From: Candidatus Desantisbacteria bacterium CG1_02_49_89
Lineage (GTDB): Bacteria; Desantisbacteria; UBA1551
Assembly: GCA_001871075.1 (NCBI GenBank)
Contig: MNUP01000091.1
Span: 1-23,648 of the forward strand
Reading direction: 5' to 3'
DNA length: 23,648 nucleotides
Below the pieces are notes generated by a model that was given only the letters and a program-made list of their open reading frames with translations, did not search any database and was not told the origin of the DNA. A program made the translations under genes and the position numbers. Below, piece after piece: positions 3,056 to 22,636 of this stretch (the stretch's first letter is position 1; each line of letters opens with the position of its first letter).

Positions 3056-5401
3056 TCAATTCGGATTCTTATACGCCAGGCCGAAGGCTGCCTGGCCCAG
3101 CGATATTCCCCCGTCATTACACGGGACCTGGCTGTGCGTGAAAACCGCGAATGATCTCTTCACAAGCTTGCCGGAAATCATTTCCAGCAGAAGCTTGTTC
3201 TGAAAAACACCCCCGCTGAGCACAACCCTTTTCAGTCCCGTTGACCTGCTTATCCGCCCGCAGGTTTCCACCACCATATCCGCAACTGTTGCATGGAATT
3301 TATACGCGATTTTCTCGGGGGGAACTTTCGCGGCCAGATCTTTTACTATTCCCCTGATTACCTGCCCCGTCTCTATCACCCTTACCCCATCTTGATTCTC
3401 TATCTTATATTTATAACGTTGACACGTTGACACGTTGACACGTTGACACGTTTTTTCCGCCTCTGCCTGCAGCTCCACCGCCGCCTGAGCCTCATACGTG
3501 GAAATGTCGCATATTCCAAGCAAAGACGACACCGCGTCAAAGAACCTGCCCATGCTTGAGGTTAAGGGGCAGTTTATCTTTTGCTCAAGCATCCTGCTTA
3601 TAAATTTTATTTTATTTTTTCCGACCCTTCTAACTAATGGAACGCGCAGCCCGGTTAAACCGCTGCCGTATGCATCCGCCAGAAAACTCAACGCCATCCG
3701 CCACGGTTCTTCCGCGACTTTGTCACCACCAGGCATCGGGATATATTTAAGGCGGCCTGCCCTTTCAAATCCCTTATAACCCGCGATCAGGAACTCACCG
3801 CCCCATATATTTCCGTCAATGCCGTAACCTGTCCCGTCCAGGATAACGCCGATAACCCTGCCTTCCAGCTTATTATCCGCCATGCAGCTGAGCGCGTGCG
3901 CGAAATGATGTTGGACCCCAAGCAGTTTCGCGCCTTTTTTCCCTGATTCAAGCGCGTATCCGGTGGCAAGATAATCCGGGTGGAGATCGTATGCCAGGGT
4001 GTCCGGATTTATGCCGAACATCTCCCTGTATTTCCTGATCTCATCCCTGTAGAAATCAAAGGTCTCCCTGTTCTTCAGGTCACCGATATGCTGGCTTACG
4101 AATGCAAGCCTTCCTTCCGCGAGGCAGAAGGTATTTTTCAATTCAGCCCCGCACCCCAGGACCTGCCGGCGGTTTCCCGGGCTTACGCCCGTTTCAACGG
4201 GCAGCGGGACAAACCCTCTTGCTCTGCGCAGGATCGCCGGCTTTCCGGCTATAACCTGCACTATGGAATCGTCGCAGCGGTTCTTTATGTCCCTGTCGTG
4301 GAGCAGAAAATAATCCGCTGTCCCGGAAAGTTTTTTAATTGCCTGCGCGTTATCTGCTACCAGGGGTTCGTCAGCGATATTCGCGCTGGTCGCGACAACA
4401 GCGGGAATGCGCAGCTCTTTCAGTAGAAGATGAAGAACGGGAGCGTACGGCAGCATCACCCCGAGATAGTTAGTGCGGGGCGCTATAGAATCTGCGACAA
4501 TACCGGCGATCTGCCCCACGCGTTTCTTCAGGAGCGTTACGGGCCTCTGGGGACCGGCCAGCGCCTTTTCAGATTTTTTATCAATTTCACAATATTTCCC
4601 CGCTGTTTCGGCGTCCCTCATCATAACTGCGAAGGGTTTAAAGGGACGGTGTTTCAGCCTGCGCAGCTTCCGGACTATCCTGTTGTTTCCCGCGTCGCAC
4701 ATTATCAGGAACCCGCCCACCCCTTTCACCGCGACGATCTTTCCTCTTTCAATCAGCCTCGCCGCCTTCTTTATCGGATCAGTTATTCCGTCATTTTGCA
4801 CTTTGCAATTTGCATTTTGCAATTTGCAATCTTTATTCGCTTTAACAAGCCACACCCGCGGACCGCACGACCCGCAGGCGTTAGGCTGCGCGTGGTAGCG
4901 CCGGGTTGCCGGATCATTATATTCCGACGAACAATCGGCGCACATTCTGAACTTGCTCATTGTCGTATGCCTGCGGTCATAGGGAAGGTCCGTTATTATA
5001 GTGAACCTGGGGCCGCAGTCCGTGCAGTTTATGAACGGGTACCCGGATCTCCGATCCGACTGGGAAAACAGCTCTCTGACGCAATTCCCGCAGGTGGCGA
5101 TATCCGGAGAAACAAGAACTCTGTTTATTCCCTTCGTGATACTTTTCTTTATCTCGAATCTGCCGGGACCCGCGGGCCTCAGCATCCTGACGGTTTTTGC
5201 TGAAATACCGGCAAGCGGCGGCGGATTTTTAAGAACGATCTTGAGAAATTTTTTCAGCCGGCCTGCCGGGCCCTCAGCCTCTATAACGACTCCGCTCATG
5301 GAATTTTGCACAAAGCCCTTAAGGCCAAGTAAGACCGCTTCTCTGTAAACAAAAGGGCGGAACCCCACTCCCTGCACTACCCCGCCGAGTTCTATCCTCA
5401 T
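3056..5401 (-). CDS. hypF: Carbamoyltransferase HypF (NiFe-hydrogenase maturation)
   Basis: HypF makes the carbamoyl group that becomes the CN ligands of the NiFe active site. All expected domains are present in order (numbering from the ATG at 5401, 781 aa): acylphosphatase domain with VQGVGFRPFVYR (Arg15); two zinc fingers C104/C107/C126/C129 and C154/C157/C176/C179; a YrdC-like domain (about 210-390); and a Kae1-like domain with HHFAHA and SGGVFQN. Two in-frame tandem-repeat insertions are unusual: CKLQNANCKVQN near residue 192 and NVSTCQRVNVSTCQR near residue 655. TTG codons at 5434 and 5416 are possible earlier starts; the latter has GGAAG upstream, and both would overlap or abut hypA. 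I prefer the ATG because MRIELGGVVQGVGF is where the family begins. Confidence 0.95.
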   Translation of the reverse strand: MRIELGGVVQGVGFRPFVYREAVLLGLKGFVQNSMSGVVIEAEGPAGRLKKFLKIVLKNPPPLAGISAKTVRMLRPAGPGRFEIKKSITKGINRVLVSPDIATCGNCVRELFSQSDRRSGYPFINCTDCGPRFTIITDLPYDRRHTTMSKFRMCADCSSEYNDPATRRYHAQPNACGSCGPRVWLVKANKDCKLQNANCKVQNDGITDPIKKAARLIERGKIVAVKGVGGFLIMCDAGNNRIVRKLRRLKHRPFKPFAVMMRDAETAGKYCEIDKKSEKALAGPQRPVTLLKKRVGQIAGIVADSIAPRTNYLGVMLPYAPVLHLLLKELRIPAVVATSANIADEPLVADNAQAIKKLSGTADYFLLHDRDIKNRCDDSIVQVIAGKPAILRRARGFVPLPVETGVSPGNRRQVLGCGAELKNTFCLAEGRLAFVSQHIGDLKNRETFDFYRDEIRKYREMFGINPDTLAYDLHPDYLATGYALESGKKGAKLLGVQHHFAHALSCMADNKLEGRVIGVILDGTGYGIDGNIWGGEFLIAGYKGFERAGRLKYIPMPGGDKVAEEPWRMALSFLADAYGSGLTGLRVPLVRRVGKNKIKFISRMLEQKINCPLTSSMGRFFDAVSSLLGICDISTYEAQAAVELQAEAEKTCQRVNVSTCQRYKYKIENQDGVRVIETGQVIRGIVKDLAAKVPPEKIAYKFHATVADMVVETCGRISRSTGLKRVVLSGGVFQNKLLLEMISGKLVKRSFAVFTHSQVPCNDGGISLGQAAFGLAYKNPN
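3418..3452. repeat. 8-bp array (GTTGACAC)x4 inside hypF
   Basis: Four perfect GTTGACAC units plus a partial GTT. The coding strand reads (GTGTCAAC)n, which has no stop in any frame and encodes the 8-residue period NVSTCQRV. The opposite strand would give TGA in every frame. Confidence 0.95.
4794..4828. repeat. 7-bp array (NTTTGCA)x5 inside hypF
   Basis: Five consecutive 7-bp units of the form (T/C/A)TTTGCA make 35 bp. Translation on the coding strand gives the odd stretch CKLQNANCKVQN just after the zinc fingers. The same heptamer family lies between genes at 5803 and 19428, and inside pyrK at 18964. Confidence 0.95.
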
Positions 5402-5417
5402 CCTTTTCGCGCTCAAT

Positions 5418-5666
5418 TTATTCTTCCAGTTCAACCGACTCTATGGAAATACCCACGCCCTCAAATTCTTCCAGTTCGATCTCGGCGCCTGCCGCCGCAG
5501 TACCTTTCGCAAGCCGTGAAAATGCAAACTGCAGCGAATCCCCGATGATCATCTCCCCGATCCCCGCTTTTACCTTTATTTTAATGACTTTTTTGCTCTT
5601 CTTGGAGGATGTTGCCAGTTCAAGGGCTTTCTTCAGTATTCCCTTCGCGATCCCTATCTCATGCAT
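5418..5666 (-). CDS. hypA: HypA-like nickel-insertion protein lacking the zinc domain
   Basis: HypA delivers nickel to the NiFe-hydrogenase precursor. The start MHEIGIAKGIL carries the Met1-His2-Glu3 nickel site, and the body KIKVKAGIGEMIIGDSLQFA matches the HypA alpha/beta core. The family is normally about 113 aa; this one is 82. After AEIELEEFE it jumps directly to GVGISIESVELEE, which matches the family C-terminal strand (G-x-x-L-x-I-x-S-I-E-V-E). The intervening CxxC...CxxC zinc ribbon is absent, and the protein contains no cysteine at all. GGGAG lies five bases before the ATG. The gene is directly followed by hypF. Confidence 0.85.
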   Translation of the reverse strand: MHEIGIAKGILKKALELATSSKKSKKVIKIKVKAGIGEMIIGDSLQFAFSRLAKGTAAAGAEIELEEFEGVGISIESVELEE

Positions 5667-5846
5667 TTTTACTCCCTGAATAGTCCGCAGCAGTTTACAA
5701 AGTTTATAAAGTTTACAGAGTTTACAAAGTAAAATATTTCTCTGTGTCTCCGTGCCTCTGTGGTTTATCTTTTACTTTTGTTCCGAAGGAATCCCTTTGG
5801 GACAATTTACAATTTGCAATTTGACTTTTGCAATAATTTTCTATTA
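5667..5846. repeat. Gap made of three stacked tandem arrays and a hairpin
   Basis: A 9-bp array AGTTTACAA x4 (5692-5727), an 8-bp array of TCTCTGTG type x3 (5739-5762) and a 7-bp array of CAATTTG type x4 (5803-5830) lie one after another. An interrupted hairpin with GTTCCGAAGG pairing to CCTTTGGGAC (5780-5803) sits directly before the last array. The 18 bases CAATTTGACTTTTGCAAT in the third array recur inside pyrK. Confidence 0.9.
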
Positions 5847-6602
5847 TCAGGCTCCACGGAGAATACAGGCTTTCACGAACGGCGAAGCCAGCTTTTTCAT
5901 ATTTTCAAGTTCATCCGGTTTGTAAGGAGCTATTTTCCTGAATTCCGGCTTCATTGCCTGTTTGTTTACAAAATTCTGCAGGCAATATTTCCTTGCCCCC
6001 TTTATTGACCTGGCAATGGAAACCACATCATCAGCGGTGTGAAGCGAAGGCACAATGGTTGTCCTGAATTCGTATTCAATGCCGCTCTCCATTATTGTCT
6101 TTATGCTTTCTTTTATCCTTCTAATGTCTATTTTTACTCCCGCCGCCTCTTCGTATTTTGTCTTCTTCCTTTTTTTCTCTGACACGTTGACACGTTGACA
6201 CGTTGACACGTCATCTATTGGTGCCTTCACGTCCATTGCTATGTAATCAACCATCTTATTTTTTAGCAGGTCTTTTACAGTATCGGGCAGAGCGCCGTTG
6301 GTGTCAAGCTTTACTTTCATCCCAAGTTCCCTGATCTCTTTCAGCAATTCCCCTATATCCGCGTAGATGCAGGGTTCGCCTCCGGTCAGGCATATGCCGT
6401 CGATCCATCTCCTGAATTTTTGGAGGTGTTCCTTTATCTTTGCAAGCGGGATCGTTTCATGCTTTTCCGGATGCAGGACAAGGCCCTGGTTCTGGCAGAA
6501 AGGGCAACGGAAATTACACCTGGAAACAAAGAGCGTGGACACTATCCTGCCGTCCCAGTCAAGCATTGACGATTCGATCATTCCCTTAATTTCTATTTTC
6601 AT
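5847..6602 (-). CDS. Anaerobic ribonucleotide reductase activating protein-like radical SAM enzyme
   Basis: The protein is 251 aa with the radical SAM motif C29-x3-C33-x2-C36 (SRCNFRCPFC), GGEP at about residue 74 and the family stretch YIAMDVKAP. This matches the NrdG2 type of glycyl-radical activase, which uses S-adenosylmethionine to install a radical on an anaerobic reductase. No nrdD is present in the window, so the partner is unknown and another glycyl-radical or maturation role is possible. An insertion of about 18 residues (DVSTCQRVNVSEKKRKKT), encoded by the 8-bp repeat, splits the conserved segment DVKAPID...KYEEAAGVK. The frame stays open through it. Confidence 0.85.
   Translation of the reverse strand: MKIEIKGMIESSMLDWDGRIVSTLFVSRCNFRCPFCQNQGLVLHPEKHETIPLAKIKEHLQKFRRWIDGICLTGGEPCIYADIGELLKEIRELGMKVKLDTNGALPDTVKDLLKNKMVDYIAMDVKAPIDDVSTCQRVNVSEKKRKKTKYEEAAGVKIDIRRIKESIKTIMESGIEYEFRTTIVPSLHTADDVVSIARSIKGARKYCLQNFVNKQAMKPEFRKIAPYKPDELENMKKLASPFVKACILRGA
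6181..6210. repeat. 8-bp array (GTTGACAC)x3.6 inside the nrdG-like gene
   Basis: Perfect GTTGACAC units in the same orientation to the gene as in hypF and pyrK, translated as STCQRVNV. Related copies are at 3418, 19192, 21904 and 22605. Confidence 0.95.
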
Positions 6603-6626
6603 CTTTCATACCTAAAAAACTTTAAC

Positions 6627-6694
6627 CACGAATTTCCACGAATTCTCACGGATTCTAAACTTTGACTCTCTGACTCTGTGACTCTTTGACTCTA
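6627..6694. repeat. Two adjacent arrays: 10-bp x3 and 8-bp x4
   Basis: CACGAATTTC, CACGAATTCT, CACGGATTCT (6627-6656) is followed by TGACTCTC, TGACTCTG, TGACTCTT, TGACTCTA (6663-6694). Together they fill most of the gap between the nrdG-like gene and the ferredoxin:thioredoxin reductase-like gene. The CACGAATT family recurs at 11232, 14466-14630 and 20819. Confidence 0.9.
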
Positions 6695-6708
6695 TCTAAG
6701 GAACCGGC

Positions 6709-6981
6709 TTAACCGGCCCTCGTGAACAACATACAATGACATTGCCCGTCCTTTTCGATCTCGTCCCTGTGGTATATGCAGGGGCATATGATGGTTTTAT
6801 CCTTTTCCGTGTCACCGGTGCGTATCCTGCAAGGGCAGTAGATCTCCCCGTGCTTCTCCTTGTTCCTGAGCAGGCCCTGGAGGATCCTTTCCGCGATTTT
6901 TTCGTCCGGGTTGAGCCTGAACCCGTTTTCCGCCGCGTATTTCTCCATCTTCTTTTTCAGCTCTTCCTTCTCGTTTTCCAT
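6709..6981 (-). CDS. Ferredoxin:thioredoxin reductase catalytic-subunit-like protein
   Basis: This 90-aa protein has the FTR beta signature of six cysteines in three pairs: C49-P-C51, C66-P-C68 and C81-H-C83. In the known family these hold a [4Fe-4S] cluster next to a redox-active disulfide that passes electrons from ferredoxin to thioredoxin. The N-terminal 40 residues are helical and charged. A variable FTR alpha subunit is not seen, as is usual outside cyanobacteria and plants. It is the first gene after a near-consensus promoter and probably leads the transcript that continues into the nrdG-like gene, hypA and hypF. A redox role for an oxygen-sensitive enzyme set is an inference. Confidence 0.9.
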   Translation of the reverse strand: MENEKEELKKKMEKYAAENGFRLNPDEKIAERILQGLLRNKEKHGEIYCPCRIRTGDTEKDKTIICPCIYHRDEIEKDGQCHCMLFTRAG

Positions 6982-6999
6982 CTCTGCCTCTCTTTATGC

Positions 7000-7027
7000 T
7001 GACAACTCTCAACTGACAACCGACAAC
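7000..7027. repeat. 7-bp array (TGACAAC)x4 in the FTR leader
   Basis: TGACAAC, TCTCAAC, TGACAAC, CGACAAC lie between the promoter at 7038-7066 and the FTR start codon, so the array is transcribed in the 5' leader. Confidence 0.85.
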
Positions 7028-7037
7028 TTTCTTAAAC

Positions 7038-7066
7038 ATTGTATCACAAAACCGCTGGTTTGTCAA
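7038..7066 (-). promoter_or_regulatory. Near-consensus promoter for the FTR-nrdG-hypA-hypF group
   Basis: TTGACA (7061-7066), a 17-base spacer and TACAAT (7038-7043) on the minus strand. The leader to the FTR start is about 50 bases and includes a heptamer array. It faces away from the plus-strand promoter at 7125-7153. Confidence 0.8.
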
Positions 7067-7124
7067 AGAAAATAAGGCACAAACCCTGTCTCGCTTTTAT
7101 ATCAATATAAATATAGCAGAAATA

Positions 7125-7153
7125 TTGACAAAATTGGTAAAATATGATAGACT
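7125..7153 (+). promoter_or_regulatory. Promoter for the plus-strand radical SAM gene
   Basis: TTGACA (7125-7130), 17 bases, then TAGACT (7148-7153) preceded by TGA at 7145-7147, which makes an extended -10 box. AAAGGA lies about a dozen bases before the ATG at 7190. Confidence 0.65.
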
Positions 7154-7189
7154 ATTTTATATATTAGCACTGAAAGGAAAAGCAGAAAA

Positions 7190-8590
7190 ATGCCGATTAG
7201 CGATATACTGAAAAAATGGGCTGTCAGCAGGCTGGCAAAGCAGCTTCCTTATGCTTCCAAGGATAACCTTGTAAAACTGGCCGGGATGGTCGAGAAAATG
7301 GCCATCCTGCCTGAAGACAAGGAAAGAGCAAGGGTGGTAGGTGAAAAATTCAAGGCTGAGCACCCCAGCCTTATATACGCGAAAGAAATACTGGGAAGGC
7401 TTAACCCTAAATGCAGGGACAAATTCTCCGTGAACCTGGTGGTCAACCACCTTGCGATCGGTAACGGGATCAGGAAAAAATTCGCGGAAAAGAACGGTTT
7501 CCTCCCGCCCTCAACGATACTCATAAGCCCTTCCATGAAATGCAACCTTAGATGCCAGGGATGTTACGCCGCGGACTACGAAAAAGAAACGGACATGGAA
7601 CCCTCCGTCCTCGACAAGATCGTGAAAGAAGGAAAGGAAATGGGCACCTTTTTCTACACCATACTCGGCGGAGAGCCCTTCATTTATCCCCACCTGCTTG
7701 ATTTCATCGCGCGCCATCCAGATTGTTACTTCCAGATATTCACGAACGGCACCCTTCTTGACAGCGAAAAAATAAACAGGCTCGTAAAGATCGGCAACGC
7801 GGCCCTGATGTTCAGCCTTGAAGGATTTGAAAAAGAAACAAATGAAAGGCGCGCGCCCGGAGTATACGGCAAGGTAATGGATGCGATGGAACACGCGAGG
7901 GAAGCGGGCCTGCTTTTCGGATATTCCTGTTACGTGACTAAAAATAACGTAGAGCAGATCGTCAGCGACGAATTCATTGACCTGATGATACAGAAAGGCG
8001 CGCTTATCGGTTGGTATTTCCTTTGCATGCCCGTAGGCAAAAAGCCCTCGGTGGAATTTATGCCTACCCCCCAGCAGAGGCTTTACCTTAAAATGCGCAG
8101 GGACCACATAAGGAACGCTAAGCCGATCTTTATAGTTGATTTCTGGAACGACGCTCCCTATGTAAGGGGGTGCATTGCAGGCAGGCAGTTCATACACGTA
8201 AACTCGCGCGGGGACATAGAACCCTGCATATTTATACACTTCGCCACGCACAACATAAAGAACTCATCGATCAGCGAGGCGCTCAAATCCCCGTTTTTCA
8301 GGGCGCTCAAAGACCGCCAGCCTTACGACGATAACCTGTATCTGCCCTGCACCATCATTGATAACCCGGAGGTCTTAAGGGAAACAGTCGAAAGAACAAA
8401 TCCCTATCCCACGCACCAGGGCGCGTCCACCCTCATCAACGACCCCGAGATACGCGGTCACCTGGACAGCTACGCCAGAGAGGTCCGGAGCTTATACAAT
8501 AAAGTGTGGGAAGAAGATATCAAGAGAGGCGACTGGAAGCTCGCGAGGAAGCACACCGCGGAAAAAAGGATGGGCATAAGAAAGGAATAA
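7190..8590 (+). CDS. Radical SAM protein with SPASM-like C-terminus, substrate unknown
   Basis: The protein is 466 aa. An N-terminal helical region of about 105 residues precedes a radical SAM core with C118-x3-C122-x2-C125 (KCNLRCQGCYA) and a GGEPF motif. The C-terminal third contains RGCIAGRQFIHVNSRGDIEPC, like an auxiliary-cluster (SPASM-type) region, and a further cysteine in LPCTIID. Such proteins often modify peptides or act in cofactor maturation. No small precursor-peptide gene is visible beside it, so the substrate is not known. It is the only clear plus-strand gene of the window and ends 5 bp from the convergent def stop codon. It has its own promoter and carries no tandem repeat. 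Confidence 0.9.
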   Translation: MPISDILKKWAVSRLAKQLPYASKDNLVKLAGMVEKMAILPEDKERARVVGEKFKAEHPSLIYAKEILGRLNPKCRDKFSVNLVVNHLAIGNGIRKKFAEKNGFLPPSTILISPSMKCNLRCQGCYAADYEKETDMEPSVLDKIVKEGKEMGTFFYTILGGEPFIYPHLLDFIARHPDCYFQIFTNGTLLDSEKINRLVKIGNAALMFSLEGFEKETNERRAPGVYGKVMDAMEHAREAGLLFGYSCYVTKNNVEQIVSDEFIDLMIQKGALIGWYFLCMPVGKKPSVEFMPTPQQRLYLKMRRDHIRNAKPIFIVDFWNDAPYVRGCIAGRQFIHVNSRGDIEPCIFIHFATHNIKNSSISEALKSPFFRALKDRQPYDDNLYLPCTIIDNPEVLRETVERTNPYPTHQGASTLINDPEIRGHLDSYAREVRSLYNKVWEEDIKRGDWKLARKHTAEKRMGIRKE

Positions 8591-8595
8591 CCGCC

Positions 8596-9099
8596 CTACT
8601 TTGAGCTTTCCGTTTGTTTTTTTAGGTCCCTCAGCGCCTTTCGCATTTTTATCTTGTCAATAATACCCATGCGATCGCAAAAAAGCACGCCGTTGAGGTG
8701 ATCAATTTCATGCTGAATAATACGGGCCGCCAATTCGGCGGCTTTTATTTTTAACTTGTCCCCTTTTTCGTTAAGGGCCCCGAACTGCACTTCTCTCGAC
8801 CTTCTGATATCCGCGAATATCCCGGGAAAGCTCAGACAGCCTTCCTTCATGACTATTCTGCCCTTTCTTTTGTAGATGCACGGGTTAACTAACTTGAGCA
8901 CCTCGCTGCCCGCGAGCATTACCACGAGCCGCTTTCCGATACCCACCTGCGGAGCCGCAAGGCCAAGGCCTTTTGACGCGATCATCGCGTGGACCATATT
9001 TTCAAGGACCCTTCGGTCCTCATCGGTTATTTTCTTCAGCGGCTTGCACCGCTTCCTGAGCACGGCGCTGCCATAAGTTCTTATGCTGAAACCCGGCAT
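8596..9099 (-). CDS. def: Peptide deformylase
   Basis: Removes the N-formyl group from nascent proteins. The protein is 167 aa with all three family motifs: GLGLAAPQ (44-51), EGCLS (86-90, metal ligand Cys88) and HEIDH (130-134, metal ligands His130 and His134, catalytic Glu131). The start codon immediately follows the panD stop, so the two are cotranscribed and probably translationally coupled. The 3' end faces the radical SAM gene with a 5-bp gap. No intrinsic terminator is visible there. Confidence 0.97.
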   Translation of the reverse strand: MPGFSIRTYGSAVLRKRCKPLKKITDEDRRVLENMVHAMIASKGLGLAAPQVGIGKRLVVMLAGSEVLKLVNPCIYKRKGRIVMKEGCLSFPGIFADIRRSREVQFGALNEKGDKLKIKAAELAARIIQHEIDHLNGVLFCDRMGIIDKIKMRKALRDLKKQTESSK

Positions 9100-9465
9100 C
9101 TATTCCCCGCCCTTCTTTTTTATGATCCTGTTCCCGTGATCCACGAAAACGATCCTGGGCTTCCATTCCTTTGCCGCTTCTTCTTCAACGCCTGAAAACG
9201 AAAGCACCAGGATCTCGTCGTCCACCTCGCCCAGGTGCGCGGCAGGCCCGTTCAGGCACATCTCGCCCGAACCTTTCCTGCCTTTGATCGCGTATGTAAT
9301 AAACCTTTCGCCGTTCCGCATGTTGAGGACCCAGACCTGTTCGCCTGGCAGGATGTCCGCGGCGGCCAGAAGGTCTTCGTCTATCGCGAGGCTTCCCTCG
9401 TAATCAACCCTTGTCGCGGTAACCCTCGCCCTGTGTATTTTTGATTTTAACATTATCCTCTGCAT
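9100..9465 (-). CDS. panD: Aspartate 1-decarboxylase
   Basis: Makes beta-alanine from aspartate for pantothenate and CoA synthesis. The 121-aa protein has the family start MLKSKIHRARVTATRVDYEG and the self-cleavage site Gly24-Ser25; Ser25 would become the pyruvoyl group. The C-terminal end is slightly longer and more charged than usual. GGAGG lies five bases before the ATG. The aspartate-consuming pyr pathway lies in the same long gene cluster, but no other pantothenate gene is near. Confidence 0.96.
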   Translation of the reverse strand: MQRIMLKSKIHRARVTATRVDYEGSLAIDEDLLAAADILPGEQVWVLNMRNGERFITYAIKGRKGSGEMCLNGPAAHLGEVDDEILVLSFSGVEEEAAKEWKPRIVFVDHGNRIIKKKGGE

Positions 9466-9483
9466 AATTACCTCCGCTAAATA

Positions 9484-13635: not shown

Positions 13636-14445
13636 CTATCTGCCCAGGATCTTGTCGATCGAAAGGGAAATGTGGTACAGGATGGTATCCGAATGGAACC
13701 TGTAAGGGCCGAATTCAGCTGTCAGGTAGTCATTGTATCCGATCTCATTTAACGCCTGAACGACTCCGGGCCAGTTTACGTTCCCCTCAAGTAAATTCAC
13801 AAATCCCGTGATGTTCCCGGTGCTTGTATTGAAATCCTTTAAATGGATCTTCTTTATTTTTTTGCCCAGTATCCTTATCCACTGCTCGGGAAACCCGTTC
13901 ACGAGCACGTTGCCCGTATCGAAGTATGCCTGGATATAGGGCTTGTTGATCTCTTCTATAAACCCCTTCATCTCCAGAGGGCTCAACAGGAATTTATTCC
14001 AGACATTTTCCGCGCCGATAAAAACCTTGCATGCCTCTGCCGCGGGAGCAAGTTCCAGCATTGCCTGCTTTGCCCTTTCATAAACCACATCATACGGAGT
14101 ATCTTCTGAAACTACTCCAGGGACGACCAGGACCGTATCAGCCCCAAGCCAGGAAGTCACTTCCAGAGCCTTTTTTACGTAGTCTATTGCCTTTTTCCTC
14201 TCGTCCGGGTTGTTGCTTGTAAGCGGGGGCCATCCCGCGCAGACGCTGCAGACCTTTATCCCCGACTCTTTTGCCAGAGAGGTTATTTTTTCCGCGTCAC
14301 CCTTCGCGGTCTTGAGATTTACGTCCGCGCCTTCACCCGCGAAATTGATCTCCACCCCGTCAAAACCCGCCTTCTTCGCCAGAGCGAAACAATCCTTTAT
14401 GCCCATACCACCCGGAAAAATACATTTGTTTACAGCTTTCTTCAT
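13636..14445 (-). CDS. Sugar phosphate isomerase/epimerase-like TIM-barrel protein
   Basis: The protein is 269 aa from the ATG at 14445, chosen because AGGAGG lies six bases upstream; the ATG at 14469 adds eight basic residues and lacks such a site. It belongs to the AP-endonuclease-2-like TIM-barrel superfamily. Likely metal ligands are the Glu of VEINF, the Glu of IGAENVWN, the Asp and His of YFDTGN and IHLKDF, and the Glu of TAEFGP. The family includes xylose-isomerase-like epimerases, so an aldose or keto-sugar is the probable substrate. The neighbouring esterase and oxidoreductase suggest a shared sugar pathway. Confidence 0.9.
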   Translation of the reverse strand: MKKAVNKCIFPGGMGIKDCFALAKKAGFDGVEINFAGEGADVNLKTAKGDAEKITSLAKESGIKVCSVCAGWPPLTSNNPDERKKAIDYVKKALEVTSWLGADTVLVVPGVVSEDTPYDVVYERAKQAMLELAPAAEACKVFIGAENVWNKFLLSPLEMKGFIEEINKPYIQAYFDTGNVLVNGFPEQWIRILGKKIKKIHLKDFNTSTGNITGFVNLLEGNVNWPGVVQALNEIGYNDYLTAEFGPYRFHSDTILYHISLSIDKILGR

Positions 14446-14681: not shown

Positions 14682-14716
14682 TCTAACCTGTGTTAACCTG
14701 TGTTAACCTGTGGTTA

Positions 14717-15823: not shown

Positions 15824-15833
15824 AACAAACCTT

Positions 15834-15937
15834 AATTATGAATTATAAATTATGAGTTATGAGTCAAAAACAAGGATTTTTATTTAAATTTAATTCCATG
15901 CTGTTGATTCATAATTCATAACTCATAATTCATAATT
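15834..15937. repeat. Inverted pair of 7-bp arrays between pyrE and alr
   Basis: AATTATG, AATTATA, AATTATG, AGTTATG (15834-15861) face CATAATT, CATAACT, CATAATT, CATAATT (15910-15937). The arms can pair over about 28-32 bp with few mismatches and a loop of about 48 bases. The same family is at 20761-20788. Confidence 0.9.
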
Positions 15938-15940
15938 GTC

Positions 15941-16522
15941 TTATTTGAGCTTGCGGCTGCCCGGCTTCACCACGGGGATCCCCTGCTTGCAGAGCGGGCA
16001 GTTCTGGGAATCAAATGTCTTTATTTTTAATTTTACAACCGAGTGCACCGGCGCGTTGAAATTCAGGCTCTTTATGCTCCTATTAACGATCGAGCCTACG
16101 CCCGCCAGCTTTGCCCCGCTTTTCCTGACGATCTTGATTATTTCCTTTACCGAGCCGCCGGTTGTGAGCACGTCCTCAACAACAAGGACCCTTTCTCCAT
16201 TTCTCAGTTCAAAACCGCGCCTTAACGTCAGCCTGCCTTCGTCTCTCTCTGCGAAGAGCGACCTTGCCTTCAGCACCCTTGCGACCTCCTGGCCTATCAC
16301 TATGCCGCCTATTGCCGGTGAAACAACCGCGTCTATTTTCTTATTGCCGAATTTCTTCGCTATCTCACTCGCGAGGAACGCGGCGTAGTTGGGATACTGC
16401 AGGACAAGCGCGCACTGAACGTACCTGTTGCTGTGGAGCCCTGAGGTCAGCAGGAAGTGGCCGCTGAGAAGCGCGCGGCTTTTCCCCAGGATATCCATAA
16501 CCTTCTTGCCATCGCTGCTCAT
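15941..16522 (-). CDS. pyrE: Orotate phosphoribosyltransferase
   Basis: Joins orotate to PRPP to give OMP. The protein is 193 aa with the PRPP-binding motif VLVVEDVLTTGGS (112-124) and the early stretch SGHFLLTSGLHSNRYVQ. The C-terminal tail with C175-P-L-C178 and PVVKPGSR is characteristic of the subfamily found in Thermus, Geobacter and Clostridia relatives. AAAGG is placed well before the ATG. pyrF lies upstream and alr downstream. Confidence 0.97.
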   Translation of the reverse strand: MSSDGKKVMDILGKSRALLSGHFLLTSGLHSNRYVQCALVLQYPNYAAFLASEIAKKFGNKKIDAVVSPAIGGIVIGQEVARVLKARSLFAERDEGRLTLRRGFELRNGERVLVVEDVLTTGGSVKEIIKIVRKSGAKLAGVGSIVNRSIKSLNFNAPVHSVVKLKIKTFDSQNCPLCKQGIPVVKPGSRKLK

Positions 16523-16536
16523 TTTATGAACCTTTC

Positions 16537-16633
16537 GATTACAGTGATTTTATAAAAATGATTACGGTGATTATCTTCAGTATCAAGAATCAAGTTTAAA
16601 ACTAATGACAAAAGACTAATGACAAATGACTGC
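16537..16633. repeat. GATTACGGTGATT words and an AATGACAAA array
   Basis: GATTACAGTGATT and GATTACGGTGATT (16537-16573) are followed by two near-identical 14-bp units ACTAATGACAAAAG and ACTAATGACAAATG (about 16603-16630). They occupy the pyrF/pyrE gap. Confidence 0.8.
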
Positions 16634-16634
16634 A

Positions 16635-17318
16635 CTATCCTATTTCTTTAAGGATTGAGACTGCGGCTGAGACAGGATCTGCGGCTTCAAGGATAGGCCT
16701 TCCGACGACTATGAAATCCGCGCCTTTTCCGACCGCGTCGCGCGGGGTTACCACCCTTTTCTGGTCTCCGGTTTCCGCTGCTGCCGGCCTGACTCCCGGA
16801 ACAACTATCAGGAAATTCCTGCCGCACGCCTTGCGCACGGTCTTTATTTCCCGCCCGGATGCGACAACGCCGTCCAGCCCGCAGGATTTTGCCAGGCGCG
16901 CGAGGGCTACAACCTGCCTTTCCACGCCGCGGTTTATACCCAGCTCTTTCTTCAGGATGTTTCCATCAATGCTTGTAAGGACTGTGACCGCGACAACGCG
17001 CATCCCGCCCTTGTTTTTCGCCGCCTCCCGCATCATCTCGGTGCCGCCGCCTGCGTGCACGGTAAGCATATCAACTCCCAGAGAGAGCGCGGATCTCACG
17101 GCCATGCCGACCGTGTTGGGTATGTCGTGGTATTTCAGGTCAAGGAAAACTTTTTTATTGAATTTCTTGACCATCTCGACGATCCCCGGGCCTTCCTTAG
17201 TGAAAAGTATGCTGCCTATCTTGAACATGCCTGCGCAGTCTTTCAGCATCGCGACAAATTTTTTCGCTGCGCCGTAGTCCTTGACATCCAGCGCGACTAT
17301 TAACGGATTGTTTTTCAT
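16635..17318 (-). CDS. pyrF: Orotidine 5'-phosphate decarboxylase
   Basis: Converts OMP to UMP, the last step of the pathway. The protein is 227 aa with the catalytic signature D60-x-K62-x-x-D65-I (FLDLKYHDIPNT), the start IVALDVKD, and the phosphate-binding end VTPRDAVGKGADFIVVGRPI. This is group I OMPDC. GGAG lies about eight bases before the ATG. No repeat insertion is seen in the coding part. Confidence 0.97.
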   Translation of the reverse strand: MKNNPLIVALDVKDYGAAKKFVAMLKDCAGMFKIGSILFTKEGPGIVEMVKKFNKKVFLDLKYHDIPNTVGMAVRSALSLGVDMLTVHAGGGTEMMREAAKNKGGMRVVAVTVLTSIDGNILKKELGINRGVERQVVALARLAKSCGLDGVVASGREIKTVRKACGRNFLIVVPGVRPAAAETGDQKRVVTPRDAVGKGADFIVVGRPILEAADPVSAAVSILKEIG

Positions 17319-17340
17319 TTAGATAACTCCGTCATCCTCT

Positions 17341-17382
17341 TTCTTCCTCTCCCTTAACGGGAGAGGAAGGTGGTGAGGGTGA
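17341..17382. repeat. CTCTCCC/GGGAGAG palindromic element between pyrD and pyrF
   Basis: CCTCTCCCttaaCGGGAGAGG followed by AAGGTGGTGAGGGTGAA. It is the same element that interrupts the pyrD coding region at 17903-17945 and recurs at 23499-23554. Confidence 0.9.
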
Positions 17383-17384
17383 AT

Positions 17385-18371
17385 TCATTTTGCCTTCAAT
17401 GATCCCACAAGCAAACCTATTTTTTTGATCCTGTTTTCAACCATATATTTCCTGATGCCGTCTATTATTTCCGGTATCGCGCGGGGATTAACAAAATTCG
17501 CCGTGCCAACAGCTACTGCTTTCGCCCCGCACACCATGAATTCAAGGGCGTCGCGCGCGTCCATGATCCCGCCCATGCCTATTATTGGTATCCTGACGGT
17601 ATTATATACTTCCCGGACCATCCTCAGCGCTATCGGTTTTATTGCCGGGCCTGAAAGCCCCCCGGTTGTGTTGCTTAGGCAGGGTGTTCTTTTTTCAAGG
17701 TTTATCGCCATACCAAGCGGCGTGTTTATCAGGGAAACCGCGTCAGCCCCTGCCCTTTCAACCGCCCTCGCTATTATTTTTATGTCGGTCACGTTCGGGG
17801 AAAGCTTTACTATAAGGGGAAGTCTGGTAATTCTGCGCACCCTTCGGACCACGCCAGCCGCTGCTTTTTCATCCTGGGCGAACATTCTTAACCTTTCCTT
17901 TTCTTTCCTCTCCCTTGACGGGAGAGGACTAAGGTGAGGGTGAAGGTTTGGGCAGGAAATATTCAGTTCTATTCCCGAAACACCCCTGACACCCTTCAGC
18001 TCCCTTGTTATATCTGTGTATTCCTGCTCTGTTTCCCCGCCGATACTCACTATTATGGGTATTCCCGGCTTCCTGAGAACAGGCATCTTATCTCTTATGA
18101 ACGCTTCTGTTCCCGGGTTCTGCAGGCCGATGCAGTTGAGCATCCCGCTGTATGTTTCTTTTATCCTCGGAGGCGGATTTCCCTTCCTGGGCTTCAGGGT
18201 GATCGTCTTTGTCACTATGGCGCCCATCTCTTTAAGATCAAAGAATTCCGCGTATTCCTCGCCGAACGCGAACGTGCCGGACCCACACATTACCGGATTT
18301 TTCATCTTTATCCCAGCTATATTTACTGATAAATCAGTGGTGAGTGGTGAGTGGTGAGTGGTGAGTTTCAC
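17385..18371 (-). CDS. pyrD: Dihydroorotate dehydrogenase, class 1B catalytic subunit
   Basis: Oxidises dihydroorotate to orotate with FMN; class 1B pairs with PyrK. The 328-aa protein shows SVNIAGIKMKNPVMCGSGTF, catalytic Cys in ELNISCPN, and the FMN-site end GMGGIMDARDALEFMVCGA. The GTG start at 18371 has AGGAG seven bases upstream. It is immediately followed by a GTGGTGA heptamer array translated as TTHHSPLTT, ahead of the normal family start SVNI. A second insert, LHPHLSPLPSRERKEKE, comes from a CTCTCCC palindromic element placed right after the catalytic ISCPN. Both inserts keep the frame. Conserved residues look intact, so it is probably active. Confidence 0.95.
   Translation of the reverse strand: MKLTTHHSPLTTDLSVNIAGIKMKNPVMCGSGTFAFGEEYAEFFDLKEMGAIVTKTITLKPRKGNPPPRIKETYSGMLNCIGLQNPGTEAFIRDKMPVLRKPGIPIIVSIGGETEQEYTDITRELKGVRGVSGIELNISCPNLHPHLSPLPSRERKEKERLRMFAQDEKAAAGVVRRVRRITRLPLIVKLSPNVTDIKIIARAVERAGADAVSLINTPLGMAINLEKRTPCLSNTTGGLSGPAIKPIALRMVREVYNTVRIPIIGMGGIMDARDALEFMVCGAKAVAVGTANFVNPRAIPEIIDGIRKYMVENRIKKIGLLVGSLKAK
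17903..17945. repeat. Palindromic element inserted in frame in pyrD
   Basis: CCTCTCCCttgaCGGGAGAGG plus ACTAAGGTGAGGGTGAA, nearly identical to 17341-17382. In pyrD it is translated as HPHLSPLPSRERK. Confidence 0.9.
18337..18364. repeat. 7-bp array (GTGGTGA)x4 at the pyrD start codon
   Basis: Four perfect GTGGTGA units begin a few codons after the GTG start. Loss or gain of one heptamer would shift the frame of PyrD. Next to it ACTGAT/ATCAGT forms a short palindrome (18325-18338). Confidence 0.95.
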
Positions 18372-18385
18372 TTCTTATCTCCTGG

Positions 18386-18517
18386 CTTTGACCTTTGAAC
18401 TTTGTGCTATTATTTCCAAATGATCTTTCCCTTTACACGTTACACCTTATCCGCCCCGATCAATATCGGGGCGAGACCTCGCCCTGCCTTTACGCAGGGC
18501 GGGCACCTTACACGTTA
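18386..18517. repeat. Heptamer arrays split by two GC hairpins, pyrK/pyrD gap
   Basis: CTTTGAC, CTTTGAA, CTTTGTG (18386-18406) is followed by TTACACG, TTACACC (18433-18446). Two hairpins then follow, CGCCCCGAT/ATCGGGGCG (18452-18473) and GCCCTGC/GCAGGGC (18481-18500), and then TTACACG again (18508). The word TTACACGTTA therefore brackets the hairpins. Confidence 0.85.
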
Positions 18518-18527
18518 TTTAGACTCA

Positions 18528-19415
18528 TCAGACGATCTCTCCCGCGTTGAAGACCGGGCCGTCCTTGCACACAAGCTTGTAACCTTGTTTTGTATTAACG
18601 GGGCAGCCGTAACAGGCGCCAATCCCGCATGCCATATCCTCTTCAAGCGATACCTGGCACGGTATTTTATGCTTCGCTGCGATCCTAGATACTTCCCTGA
18701 GCATTGCTTTTGGCCCGCACGCGTACACCGTCGAGCGTTTGTTTTTTCGTATAACGTATGACGTACGACGTACGACGTTTTCTAAAAGCCCAGTAACCAG
18801 ACCCTTATAGCCTTTAGAGCCATCGTCGGTACTGACCTTTACCGTACAACCTAGGTTCTTGAATTCGTTCTCGCACAGCAGTTCTTTCTTTGTCTTCGCC
18901 CCTATTAAAACTATGATCCTGGATCCTGGATGCTGGATGCTGGATGAAGGATTTAAATTTAACTTTTGCAATTTACAATTTGACTTTTGCAATTCTTCTG
19001 CTAACAGCAGAAGAGGCGCTACCCCCATCCCTCCTGCGACCAGTATAGCCGAATTTATTTTTCTGGGTATACTGAACCCGTTTCCAAGAGGTCCGATAAC
19101 ATTTATGATCTCACCCGGTTTCTTCCGCGCAAGCGCTTCTGTTCCCTTCCCTACTGTCTTATAAAATATTTCTATCCATCCTTGCTTTTGCGCTGACACG
19201 TTGATACGTTGATACGCTGATACGTTTGCATTATTGATTTTATGGATGCTGAACGGCCTGCGCAGCAGGATCCCCGCAGGTCCCGAACACCTTATATGAA
19301 CAAATTGCCCCGGTCTTGCCTTTATGGCAATAAGCGGGGCAATGATCTTTAACCTGTAAAAATCCGGCCCTACCTTTTTATTTTCAATTATCCTGCACTT
19401 TTCAGTCTTCACCAT
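18528..19415 (-). CDS. pyrK: Dihydroorotate dehydrogenase electron-transfer subunit
   Basis: Carries electrons from PyrD to NAD through FAD and a [2Fe-2S] cluster. The 295-aa protein (family about 260) has RRPFSIH (FAD), GPLGNGF, the nucleotide-binding LVAGGMGVAPLLLL, YACGP, and cluster ligands C263, C268, C271 and C283. Four stretches foreign to the family are encoded by tandem repeats: NVSAYQRINVSA (near residue 68), NCKLQKLNLN (near 146), SSSIQHPGSR (near 160) and VVRRTSYVIRKN (near 215). All lie between conserved blocks. GGAG is very close to the ATG, so the GTG at 19412 is an alternative start. Confidence 0.93.
   Translation of the reverse strand: MVKTEKCRIIENKKVGPDFYRLKIIAPLIAIKARPGQFVHIRCSGPAGILLRRPFSIHKINNANVSAYQRINVSAQKQGWIEIFYKTVGKGTEALARKKPGEIINVIGPLGNGFSIPRKINSAILVAGGMGVAPLLLLAEELQKSNCKLQKLNLNPSSSIQHPGSRIIVLIGAKTKKELLCENEFKNLGCTVKVSTDDGSKGYKGLVTGLLENVVRRTSYVIRKNKRSTVYACGPKAMLREVSRIAAKHKIPCQVSLEEDMACGIGACYGCPVNTKQGYKLVCKDGPVFNAGEIV
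18754..18774. repeat. 7-bp array (ACGTACG)x3 inside pyrK
   Basis: ACGTATG, ACGTACG, ACGTACG, then ACGTTTT. Encodes RRTSYVI between TGLLEN and the conserved YACGP. Confidence 0.9.
18915..18991. repeat. Two adjacent 7-bp arrays inside pyrK
   Basis: GATCCTG x2, GATGCTG x2, GATGAAG (18915-18949) and TTTTGCA, ATTTACA, ATTTGAC, TTTTGCA (18964-18991). Together they encode a stretch of about 24 residues between LLLLAEEL and IVLIGA, where relatives have only a few. Confidence 0.93.
19192..19223. repeat. 8-bp array (GTTGATAC type)x4 inside pyrK
   Basis: GCTGACAC, GTTGATAC, GTTGATAC, GCTGATAC. These are variants of the GTTGACAC family. The left flank TCCTTG...TTTTGCG matches the flanks of the intergenic copies at 21904 and 22605. 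Confidence 0.93.
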
Positions 19416-19427
19416 GCTCCGTCTTTA

Positions 19428-19476
19428 CAATTTGCAATTTAAAATTTACAATTTACAATTTGAAATTTGTAATTTA
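19428..19476. repeat. 7-bp array (CAATTTG type)x7 across the pyrC stop codon
   Basis: Seven heptamers fill the pyrC/pyrK gap, and the last one supplies the pyrC stop codon. Confidence 0.93.
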
Positions 19477-20748
19477 TAAGGAATACAACACTCTTCCCCC
19501 CACTATCGTCGTCACCACCCTTCCTCTCACTGTCCTGCCGATAAAAGGCGAGTTCTTGCACGGACCCGCGAAATCCGCCGGTGCTATCGTCCATTCAGCG
19601 CCCGTGTCAAATATGACAACATCGGCATCCTGATCCGGCGCTATGACTCCCTTTTTCAAACCAAGGATCCTCGCTGGATTTACCGTCATCTTGGCAACCG
19701 CGCTCTTCAGTGTGATCACCCCTTCTCCGACTATTTCTGTCAGGATAAGCGCCAGGCAAGTTTCAAGGCCTACCATTCCGAACGGGGCTGAGCGGTAATC
19801 ATCGTCCTTTTCTTCCTGGCTGTGCGGCGCGTGGTCCGTCGCGATGGCGTCTATCGTTCCGTCGCGTAATCCCTTCCTCAGCGCGGATATGTCATCCCTG
19901 GTCCGCAGCGGCGGGTTCACCTTTGTGCTGGTATCGAATCCCCTTACCAGGTCATCGGTAAGTATGAGATGGTGGGGTGTAACCTCGGCGCTGACATTTA
20001 CCTTCTTTCTTTTCGCCTGTTTCAAGATCTCGACTGTTCCCCTTGTGCTTGAGTGCGATATGTGCAGGGCGCCGCCGGTCATGGCGGCAAGAGAGATATC
20101 CCGGTACACTATCACTTCCTCGGCCTCTGCCGGCATTCCCGTTATTCCCAGCACAGTCGAATTATAACCTTCGTTCATCACGCCGTTCCTTGAAAGCTGC
20201 TTGTCCTGGCAGTGGGACATTATTGGCAGGCTGAACATTTTCGCGTATTCAAAAGCCCTGCGCATTACAAGCGCGTTCATAACGCTGTCCCCGTCATCAG
20301 AAAGCGCCACTACGCCCGCGTCCTTCAGCTCGCTTATCTCCGCGAGCTCCTCGCCCTTCCTTCCTTTGGTTATGGCACCCACCGGGAAAATCCTTACCGT
20401 CCCGCCCCTGTTCTCCTTAGCTTTTTCAAGGATGTATTTCACGGTCCCGGGGCTGTCGATGGGAGGATTCGTATTAGGCATGCAGCATATGCTGGTAAAA
20501 CCGCCTTTTAACGCGGCAAGGGAGGTCTGCGCTATCGTTTCCTCGTCTTCCCTGCCAGGCTCCCTGAGATGGCAGTGCATGTCGATAAGGCCCGGGGCCA
20601 CGGTTTTACCTTTTGCGTCTATGACGCGGGCGTTCTTTTCCCTGATGTTCTTGCCTACGGCGGCGATCTTATCATCCTTGATAAGGATGTCCAGTTTTCC
20701 TTCTTTTCCGCCCGGGTTTACGACCCTTCCGTTCTTTATAAGTATCAT
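19474..20748 (-). CDS. pyrC: Dihydroorotase
   Basis: Cyclises carbamoyl-aspartate to dihydroorotate. The 424-aa protein is of the long bacterial class with zinc motif DMHCHLREPG (56-65), CMPNTNPPID, SHCQD, LHISHSS, and the ATDHAPHSQEEK loop near residue 310. The length and motifs agree with the B. subtilis/Thermus-type enzyme. AAGGA is placed well before the ATG. The stop codon lies in a heptamer array. It follows pyrB by 151 bases of repeats. Confidence 0.97.
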   Translation of the reverse strand: MILIKNGRVVNPGGKEGKLDILIKDDKIAAVGKNIREKNARVIDAKGKTVAPGLIDMHCHLREPGREDEETIAQTSLAALKGGFTSICCMPNTNPPIDSPGTVKYILEKAKENRGGTVRIFPVGAITKGRKGEELAEISELKDAGVVALSDDGDSVMNALVMRRAFEYAKMFSLPIMSHCQDKQLSRNGVMNEGYNSTVLGITGMPAEAEEVIVYRDISLAAMTGGALHISHSSTRGTVEILKQAKRKKVNVSAEVTPHHLILTDDLVRGFDTSTKVNPPLRTRDDISALRKGLRDGTIDAIATDHAPHSQEEKDDDYRSAPFGMVGLETCLALILTEIVGEGVITLKSAVAKMTVNPARILGLKKGVIAPDQDADVVIFDTGAEWTIAPADFAGPCKNSPFIGRTVRGRVVTTIVGGRVLYSL

Positions 20749-20760
20749 TCTTTTTCCTTA

Positions 20761-20899
20761 AATTATAAATTATGAGTTATGAATTATGAGTTAAAAGCAA
20801 AGGATGTTATTTAAAGTCAATTCGTGAAAATTCGTGTTAATTCGTGGTTAAAAATTATGCTTTAGCGGTAATCTTAAACTTTCAGCTTTCAGCTTTGAG
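20761..20899. repeat. Three arrays filling the pyrB/pyrC gap
   Basis: AATTATA, AATTATG, AGTTATG, AATTATG (20761-20788), then AATTCGTGAA, AATTCGTGTT, AATTCGTGGT (20819-20848), then CTTTCAG, CTTTCAG, CTTTGAG (20879-20899). The last ends exactly at the pyrB stop codon. The second is the CACGAATT family in inverse orientation. Confidence 0.92.
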
Positions 20900-21841
20900 C
20901 TAAATTTGCTTCTGTGCCAGAAGCAGGTATAGCACCGCCATCCTGACCGCTATGCCGTTGGTGACCTGTTCCAGTATCACCGAACAGGCACCGTCTGCCA
21001 CGCTGCTCGAGATCTCTATCCCGCGATTTATCGGGCCCGGGTGCATAACAAGGCAGTCGCTCTTTGCAAGCTTCAGCCTTTCCGGCGTGATGCAGAAATC
21101 CTTCACGTATTCATGTATGCTGGGGAAGAAATTGCTGGTCTGCCTTTCCAGCTGTATCCTGAGGCCCATAATAACGTCCGCGTCTATGAACGCCTCCTCA
21201 GGCCGGTAAAAAACCTGCACTTTAAGGTCCTGAGCCCTGGGCGGGATGAGCGTTGGCGGGCCCACAACCTTTACCACCGCGCCCATCTTGGTAAGCCCCC
21301 AGATGTTGGAGCGCGCCACCCTGCTGTGCAGGATGTCGCCTATTATCACCACGTTAAGGCCTTCTATTTTTTTCTTTTTTTCCCGGATAGTGAACATGTC
21401 AAGCAGCGCCTGGGTTGGATGCTCGTGCGAGCCGTCCCCGGCGTTCACTAACGACGCCTTCAGGACCCTGCTCAGCAGGAAAGCCGCCCCTTCCACCGGG
21501 TGCCTCACGACAACAGCGTCAACCTCCATTGCCTGGATGTTGCGCGCGGTGTCCGTGAGGCTTTCTCCCTTCACAACGCTGGAAGCTGAAGAGGCAATGT
21601 TGATCACGTCTGCGCTCAGCCTTTTTGACGCGAGTTCAAATGAAATGCGGGTTCGGGTGCTGGGTTCGTAGAAAAGATTTACAACGGTTTTACCCCTAAG
21701 GGCAGGCACTTTCTTGATGGGGCGGATGGAAACTTCCTTGAATCCTCTTGCGGTATCAAGTATGAGTTCGATCTCTTCCCTGCTCAGTTCTTCTATTCCA
21801 AGAAGGTCTTTTCTTTTAAACACAATCTTCTTGCTGTTCAT
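20900..21841 (-). CDS. pyrB: Aspartate carbamoyltransferase catalytic subunit
   Basis: Makes carbamoyl-aspartate, the first committed step. The 313-aa protein has the carbamoyl-phosphate site STRTR (61-65), KGES near residue 91, and HPTQ (141-144), with the aspartate-loop residues near MGLRIQLER. No regulatory pyrI chain is beside it, which fits the PyrR-type gene order. GAGGAAGAGG precedes the ATG. It is the second pyr gene after pyrR. Confidence 0.97.
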
Positions 21842-21903
21842 TCCTCTTCCTCATTCCTGCTGCATGCATTAACTATTCGTTTAAATTTATTCCTTGTTTT
21901 TGC

Positions 21904-21935
21904 GTTGATACGTTGATACGCTGACACGTTGACAC
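21904..21935. repeat. 8-bp array (GTTGATAC/GTTGACAC)x4 between pyrR and pyrB
   Basis: GTTGATAC x2, GCTGACAC, GTTGACAC, flanked by TTCCTTG...TTTGCG and GCTTTA, as at 22605. Confidence 0.95.
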
Positions 21936-21943
21936 GCTTTATA

Positions 21944-22495
21944 TTATGGACTGTTAACAACAACTTCATCCCTTCCATCCGACTCTTTCATCCTTACTTC
22001 CACTATTTGGCGGTGTGTTGTTGAAATGGACACTCCGGAATAATCCGCCTGTATCGGCAGTTCCCTCAGGCCCCTGTCAACCAGCACCGCGAGCTGTATG
22101 TTCCTCGGCCTTCCGAAATCCACAAGCTCATCCATCGCGGCGCGGATGGTCCTGCCGGTGTAAAGCACGTCGTCAACAAGGACTATTTTCCTGTCCGTAA
22201 GGTCAAAACCTATCTCCGTGCTCCTTACGATCGGCTGGGCTGAGATCGTTGTGAGGTCGTCGCGGTACAGGGTTATGTCAAGGATACCCAGCGGGACCTC
22301 AGCCTTATATTTGCTTTTTAACAATACGGCGATGCGGTCCGCGATATGGGCGCCCCTCATCCGGATGCCTACTATCGCAAGGTCTTTCAGCCCGTTCTTC
22401 GCGCTGTTCCTCTGCGCTATCTCATCGCAGATCCGTGCGATCGTCTTGCTTACCCCGTTTTTATCCAGTATTACCTGTGTCTTATTTGTCTTCAT
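21944..22495 (-). CDS. pyrR: Bifunctional PyrR: pyr regulator/uracil phosphoribosyltransferase
   Basis: In the known family PyrR binds pyr leader RNA when UMP is high and also has UPRTase activity. The 183-aa protein has the PRPP motif VLVDDVLYTGRTI (104-116) and the early block VGIRMRGAHIADR. I searched the upstream gaps by eye for the usual PyrR-binding loop (AGTCCAGAGAGGCT-like) and found none, so how it regulates here is open. AGGAAAAAA precedes the ATG. pyrB follows after 102 bases. Confidence 0.96.
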   Translation of the reverse strand: MKTNKTQVILDKNGVSKTIARICDEIAQRNSAKNGLKDLAIVGIRMRGAHIADRIAVLLKSKYKAEVPLGILDITLYRDDLTTISAQPIVRSTEIGFDLTDRKIVLVDDVLYTGRTIRAAMDELVDFGRPRNIQLAVLVDRGLRELPIQADYSGVSISTTHRQIVEVRMKESDGRDEVVVNSP

Positions 22496-22604
22496 TTTTT
22501 CCTGGCTAACTTATCCTGCTGTACCCACCCTTGTCCGCCAATTCTTAAGGTGGAAATCTTTAAGGAGTGTGATTTGATATTACGATAAAATTCCTTGTTG
22601 TTGC

Positions 22605-22636
22605 GTTGACACGCTGATACGTTGACACGTTGACAC
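22605..22636. repeat. 8-bp array (GTTGACAC type)x4 upstream of pyrR
   Basis: GTTGACAC, GCTGATAC, GTTGACAC, GTTGACAC with flanks TTCCTTGTTGTTGCG and GCTTTA. It lies in the 172-base gap between the ACT gene and pyrR, where leader control would be expected. Confidence 0.95.

Follow-up and report, generated by a model that had tools for sequence, protein, structure and literature searches.

Octanucleotide arrays as the probable ends of a short palindromic element in Candidatus Desantisbacteria bacterium CG1_02_49_89

The window analysed here is a stretch of 23,648 nucleotides (contig MNUP01000091.1, assembly GCA_001871075.1) from Candidatus Desantisbacteria bacterium CG1_02_49_89, in which tandem arrays of the octanucleotide YTGAYACG (Y = C/T) are found in hypF, in an NrdG-like gene and among the pyr genes. 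Each octamer array forms the outer terminus of a palindromic element laid out as array'–CAAGGAATTTATT–AATAAATTCCTTG–array. The arrays are probably (about 0.68 in our estimate) the ends of a short, non-autonomous and selfish palindromic element, whose copies have survived at gene edges and in protein loops.

Octamer arrays in the window and in the genome

An earlier note on this DNA had reported five arrays in a single orientation, and all of them are present, each with exactly four units and with YTGAYACG as the unit consensus. Two are headless, that is, devoid of the conserved sequence described below, and both lie in frame on the plus strand: one at 3419-3450 in the minus-strand gene hypF, where it encodes the peptide TCQRVNVSTCQR (seen in the sequence and in the alignment), and one at 6179-6210 in the NrdG-like radical SAM gene (peptide DVSTCQRVNVSE). 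The other three, also on the plus strand, are half elements composed of a head and a four-unit array. The first, at 19179-19224 (head TCCTTGCTTTTGCG, array 19193-19224), adds about 17 residues in frame to pyrK. The second occupies the pyrR–pyrB gap at 21883-21936 (head AAATTTATTCCTTGTTTTTGCG, array 21905-21936), its array ending 7 nt from the pyrR stop codon, and the third the gap between the ACT gene and pyrR at 22585-22637 (array 22606-22637), ending 30 nt from the ACT gene stop. The flank TCCTTG..TTTGCG that the note had pointed out is indeed common to these three arrays.

The census combined genome-wide pattern counts with about 0.55 Mb of fetched stretches. In the 2.48-Mb genome, perfect YTGAYACG matches amount to 255 of two units, 135 of three and 57 of four, and the pattern search found no array of five perfect units. 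A reversed control pattern gave 0 matches genome-wide, against 255 for the two-unit octamer, and Markov resampling of the fetched sequence yielded about one tandem array overall, so the octamer arrays are not a product of chance. A search that tolerated up to one mismatch per unit yielded 105 arrays (80 four-unit, 2 five-unit, 6 three-unit and 17 two-unit), several of the two-unit arrays being longer ones interrupted by a GC-rich hairpin. An assembly artefact, which had been raised as a possible objection, is disfavoured by these roughly 100 copies with mostly different flanks. The identity of each unit depends on its position: among the four-unit arrays, unit 1 reads GACAC in 71/80, unit 2 GATAC in 44/80 and unit 4 GACAC in 66/80, which indicates descent as a block rather than free slippage.

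These data bear on the idea that the arrays are ordinary microsatellites expanded in place by slippage. The headless copies inside genes are nearly pure TTGACACG, and the genome is also rich in other 7-10 bp tandem arrays, in line with such a process. However, microsatellites and variable-number tandem repeats have an open-ended number of units, and here the number is capped at four. Slippage is further contradicted by the position-specific unit variants, by a dispersed common head, by pairs of same-type arrays facing each other and by the fact that arrays of this unit are nearly absent elsewhere, a scan of 84,980 genomes giving 26 scattered loci (the genome under study being apparently outside that set). 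It is therefore a most improbable origin. The earlier estimate of about four units holds for each window array, although it had missed the cap, and the description of the repeats as built from microsatellite units is not supported.

Head, palindrome and half elements

The head, AATAAATTCCTTG YNK TTGCK, precedes 40 of the 73 four-unit copies outside called genes, as judged by a strict regular expression. Pairs of arrays no more than 90 bp apart number 20 and face outward from a common centre in all 20 cases, spanning about 75-140 bp. The partners are of the same type in 19 pairs (12 octamer–octamer and 7 ATTCATA–ATTCATA, a heptamer subfamily), with one mixed pair. Three facing-pair examples fold as hairpins (z -5.2 to -9.5), the pair at C43:3988-4097 forming one long hairpin (z -9.5), while two single half elements fold no better than shuffled sequence (z +1.1 and -0.6). 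The facing pairs and the long hairpin imply that the complete element is a palindrome, with the head making up one half of its centre (CAAGGATTTATT..AATAAATTCCTTG). Paired copies are a minority, and most copies are half elements. With inverted arrays at its ends, an AT-rich core and no open reading frame of its own, the complete form has the terminal inverted repeats without coding capacity that are expected of a miniature inverted-repeat transposable element.

The two arms are not exact complements. At the C/T positions they match at 19 sites and mismatch at 43 (p = 0.002), a difference beyond chance that would be expected if perfect long palindromes were counter-selected. The A–C and G–U mismatches are similarly frequent (21 and 22), which gives no sign of conserved RNA pairing between the arms, and this candidate constraint was rejected. 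The same figures speak against an RNA-level role, in which the element would be an intercistronic hairpin that stabilises or processes polycistronic mRNA, by analogy with what repetitive extragenic palindromic sequences and bacterial interspersed mosaic elements (REP/BIME) can do. Complete elements do fold strongly and sit in same-direction gaps, but most copies are single, non-folding arms, and such a role is very unlikely.

Placement at gene edges

About 90 of the roughly 105 copies are intergenic, with the array end abutting a stop codon or lying shortly before a start codon, according to gene calls made with our own simple scorer instead of an annotated set. The array end is the gene-proximal end in 80 of 86 scorable gaps, and the median distance from array to gene is 6.5 nt for the 58 gaps in which the array follows a stop and 16 nt for the 28 in which it precedes a start. 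The gaps that hold arrays are mosaics of other repeat modules as well, and TTTTATYG is often the point at which hairpins in them join the head.

Nothing sets the pyr locations apart. Both pyr-gap copies belong to the intercistronic, after-stop type that is common genome-wide, and a role specific to pyr leaders is not supported. An Rfam scan of the window gave nothing at gathering thresholds and thus revealed neither a known pyr leader nor any other known RNA family.

Copies inside protein genes

In-frame copies occur in at least 11 conserved genes, comprising hypF, the NrdG-like gene and pyrK in the window and eight others outside it: those for AhcY, PurL, GlyS, a TIGR03960 radical SAM protein, an aconitase/LeuC-family protein, the V-type ATPase subunit A, an MFS protein and a rhamnosidase-like protein. 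In the lipoyl synthase gene, an array lies near the end of the frame. The coding strand of the octamer is stop-free and reads NVSTCQRV, as the earlier note had worked out, or NVSAYQRI, and the opposite strand presents TGA in all frames (8 mod 3 = 2). Every copy found within a conserved gene has the stop-free orientation, as is required by the stops in the opposite one. The element is thus tolerated as an in-frame insertion in unrelated protein genes, and the suggestion that a defined element has spread into coding sequences is supported.

A GC-rich, REP-like hairpin (CCGCCCAGCAAGCGTTGGCGGGCAGGC) is itself found inside octamer arrays, at loci L076, L007, L015, L026, L092, L102, L079, L103 and L023. 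It follows GTRTC in 12 of 17 copies, with the array usually resuming at AA without target duplication. The hairpin has inserted into the arrays in the manner of Y1 transposases. In the in-gene copies, the hairpin is 27 nt long and the reading frame is therefore kept.

Comparison with the sister genome

The phylum is represented in the collection by two genomes, the second of which (G001) belongs to the same order but to another family. G001 is syntenic with most of the window and contains no octamer array. The pyrR–pyrB junction, with 102 bp and a half element here, is a 4-bp overlap in G001. Other, non-octamer repeats account for the 112 bp between pyrF and pyrE (-4 in G001) and the 58 bp between pyrC and pyrK (2 bp in G001).

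The alignments that had been proposed as a check gave a divided answer. The PyrK insert of about 17 residues is clean, being absent from G001 and from the other aligned homologues. By contrast, the HypF and NrdG-like arrays lie in length-variable loops, and G001 has a different repeat-coded insert at each of these sites, so that they are permissive sites struck by different repeats. The inserts in G001, also in frame, consist of a hairpin of the GTAG type and of an array of the heptamer CTCAAAG with a hairpin; they are placed at L215 (G001:C89) 13998-14034 and, for HypF, near the 3' end. None of the aligned homologues has the octamer peptide, a case that would have spoken against insertion. 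AhcY gains only four residues over its homologues and G001 AhcY gains three, so that a clean 11-residue insertion is not demonstrated for this protein.

Exchangeable arrays and the span of about 32 bp

The octamer-type head also precedes heptamer arrays of ATTCATA and CCAGGAT, of about 31 bp. Of 304 head-like sites, 53 are followed by an array, compared with 63 of 1116 for six control hexamers. The window has several examples. A complete palindromic element of the ATTCATA subfamily fills the pyrE–alr gap at 15834-15937, with two 31-bp heptamer arrays facing around an octamer-type core. A half element of the same subfamily lies on the minus strand of the pyrB–pyrC gap at 20759-20818 (31-bp array, then head). 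A 32-bp CCAGGAT-type array with the head core is found in frame in pyrK, on the minus strand at 18915-18962 (..NPSSSIQHPGS..).

In the sampled 0.55 Mb, ATTCATA and CCAGGAT arrays peak at 30-32 bp and octamer arrays at about 32-34 bp. Heptamer arrays of 46 further units also peak at 30-32 bp, with only 7 of 69 being longer. The density of heptamer arrays is 130 per Mb in contigs that lack octamer arrays; it is 11 per Mb in G001, and 19 other genomes, sampled over about 0.37 Mb, gave only a handful. It may tentatively be proposed, as a rather unlikely reading, that the conserved quantity is the length of the array and not the sequence of its unit, with some process writing or maintaining tandem arrays of about 32 bp largely regardless of the unit and setting a part of these behind the shared palindromic head. 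In an unrelated genome, one 20-kb stretch (G019:C11:1-20000, L245) carries several 7-8 bp tandem arrays 25-47 bp long and may hold a similar class.

A constant length across different units is also what a fixed protein footprint would produce. By analogy with like architecture interpreted as regulator sites in Geobacter, four phased octamers could represent one site of a pair bound by a nucleoid or global regulator (IHF/HU-like) and kept for organising or regulating operons. The precise placement at gene edges fits such sites, and the C/T tolerance at fixed positions resembles a binding consensus. However, the many unit sequences would demand many different proteins, the element is missing from G001 at equivalent operon junctions, and the presence of copies in the coding sequence of housekeeping enzymes, with no pyr- or function-specific set, points to spread instead. 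Regulator sites are thus an unlikely explanation of the arrays.

Proposed element and its mobilisation

The selfish element proposed here would be about 80-140 bp long, with two arms pointing outward from an AT-rich centre. Each arm would comprise the core AATAAATTCCTTG, a linker YNKTTGCK and exactly four YTGAYACG units (32 bp), and at least two further subfamilies would carry heptamer arrays of about 31 bp behind an octamer-type head. It would insert as selfish DNA, presumably transposed by an enzyme acting in trans, and its copies would survive where harm is small, either between the stop and start codons of adjacent genes or in protein loops in the stop-free orientation. One-arm copies could arise from the instability of long palindromes, from the insertion of a REP-like hairpin at the centre or from the movement of half elements by themselves, and differences between the arms at C/T positions would make the palindrome imperfect.

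Several observations weigh against a mobile palindrome of this kind. The head is absent from a large minority of four-unit arrays, including most in-gene copies, and these headless arrays are richer in pure TTGACACG, so array-only spread or local expansion is possible there. Same-direction gaps are not enriched for arrays (75 of 76, against a background of 165 of 171; p = 0.44), because nearly all sampled gaps are same-direction. The evidence of insertion comes from a genome of another family, G001, and not from an empty site in the same species, and no target-site duplication was recognised by eye. Finally, no mobilising enzyme has been linked to the element: arrays lie near one of the eight Y1 loci examined, other transposase families not having been searched.

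The genome has ten matches to Y1_Tnp (IS200/RAYT-type), one of them incomplete near a contig end, and several GTAG/GTAA-type hairpin families in its gaps. A REP-associated tyrosine transposase (RAYT) was considered as the mobiliser and rejected, arrays being found close to a single one of the eight Y1 loci examined, at about 1 kb. A viral source was also set aside, since viral contigs gave no match to the octamer array. Two octamer elements that are identical in array and flanks (C52, ~2538 and ~5748; L056 and L057) lie inverted, about 3.2 kb apart, beside two sulfatase-like genes. They are possibly a local inverted duplication; they were discarded as transposon ends, as the adjacent genes are sulfatase-like and neither 3-kb locus has an inverted repeat of 25 bp or more.

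Comparison with known repeat systems

In the published account of Geobacter metallireducens, class 1 sites comprise four tandem octanucleotides per site, in opposite-strand pairs at variable distance (48 aligned sequences), and class 3 sites five tandem heptamers in an opposite-strand layout (PMC2700814). The same account reports a four-heptamer family of 49 members within and between genes, and insertion sequences at a fixed distance from class 1 sites, and interprets classes 1-3 as putative IHF/HU sites (PMC2700814). As set out in its sections on these classes, the paired four-octanucleotide sites are the closest described architecture. They share with the present element the four tandem octamers and the opposite-strand pairing at variable distance, which apply here to the paired minority only. 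The Geobacter units (GTTGCTYN, MTYCTGA and GGACCGG) differ from YTGAYACG, which does not fit the class 1 consensus GTTGCTYN, and, unlike what is seen here, those sections mention neither a common head joining different arrays nor a gene-edge rule nor in-frame insertions in proteins.

Rickettsia palindromic elements (RPE) are about 150 bp long and encode a conserved peptide, as summarised from Ogata et al. 2000 and 2002 (PMC10969869). In terms of that summary, and by description rather than by sequence, the likeness lies in a dispersed palindrome with several families per genome, in frame in unrelated genes and without a transposase of its own. The facing pairs correspond to the dispersed palindrome of about 100-150 bp, most copies being its halves. 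Unlike the RPE so described, coding copies here are partial (an array or a half element), the arms end in tandem octamers and most copies are intergenic. The best explanation is an element that resembles RPE in effect, with imperfect arms and often a single arm left. The earlier comparison with RPE was apt, and closer than claimed, because the complete element is a palindrome.

The TAACTGA direct repeats of Beggiatoaceae and the short tandemly repeated repetitive sequences of cyanobacteria lie scattered in gaps, for the most part directly before start codons (PMC4679880). TAACTGA is present as 2-6 units in the Beggiatoaceae genome and up to 43 elsewhere, with one indirect repeat in 170 sets (PMC4679880). 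These repeats resemble the octamers in being short, tandem and dispersed in gaps, with some reverse copies inside open reading frames, but TAACTGA is a heptamer of variable unit number with neither palindromic pairing nor a common head. With REP/BIME and their RAYT (PMC3733652), the octamer element has in common the small dispersed units, head-to-head dimers, mosaic gaps and intragenic copies, and REP-like hairpins are nested in the octamer arrays. It differs in that a single half does not fold and in being mostly not beside the Y1 transposases examined; neither a GTAG nor a CGTC tag was found in the octamer head or tail.

Judged by the literature consulted, three features are new with respect to published descriptions: a palindromic head shared by exchangeable arrays, a span fixed at about 32 bp across different units, and direct evidence of insertion from the comparison with a syntenic sister. 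If the reading as a selfish palindrome is true, sets of 'four tandem octamers' or '~4.4 heptamers' in genome papers may be exchangeable ends of palindromic selfish elements. Such elements would also reshape operons, as where a 100-bp spacer replaces a 4-bp overlap, and lengthen core enzymes by extra peptides. Why unrelated repeats share a span of about 32 bp is a puzzle that can be addressed in any array-bearing genome, including cultivable Geobacter.

Other repeats in the window

An array of the heptamer TTTGCAA lies in frame in hypF at 4795-4830 (CKLQNANCKVQN; no strand assigned), opposite a gap in solved HypF structures, and is an insertion of like class but of a different element. The pyrK gene (18528-19415) has two separate repeat-coded insertions from several repeat families and keeps one open frame.

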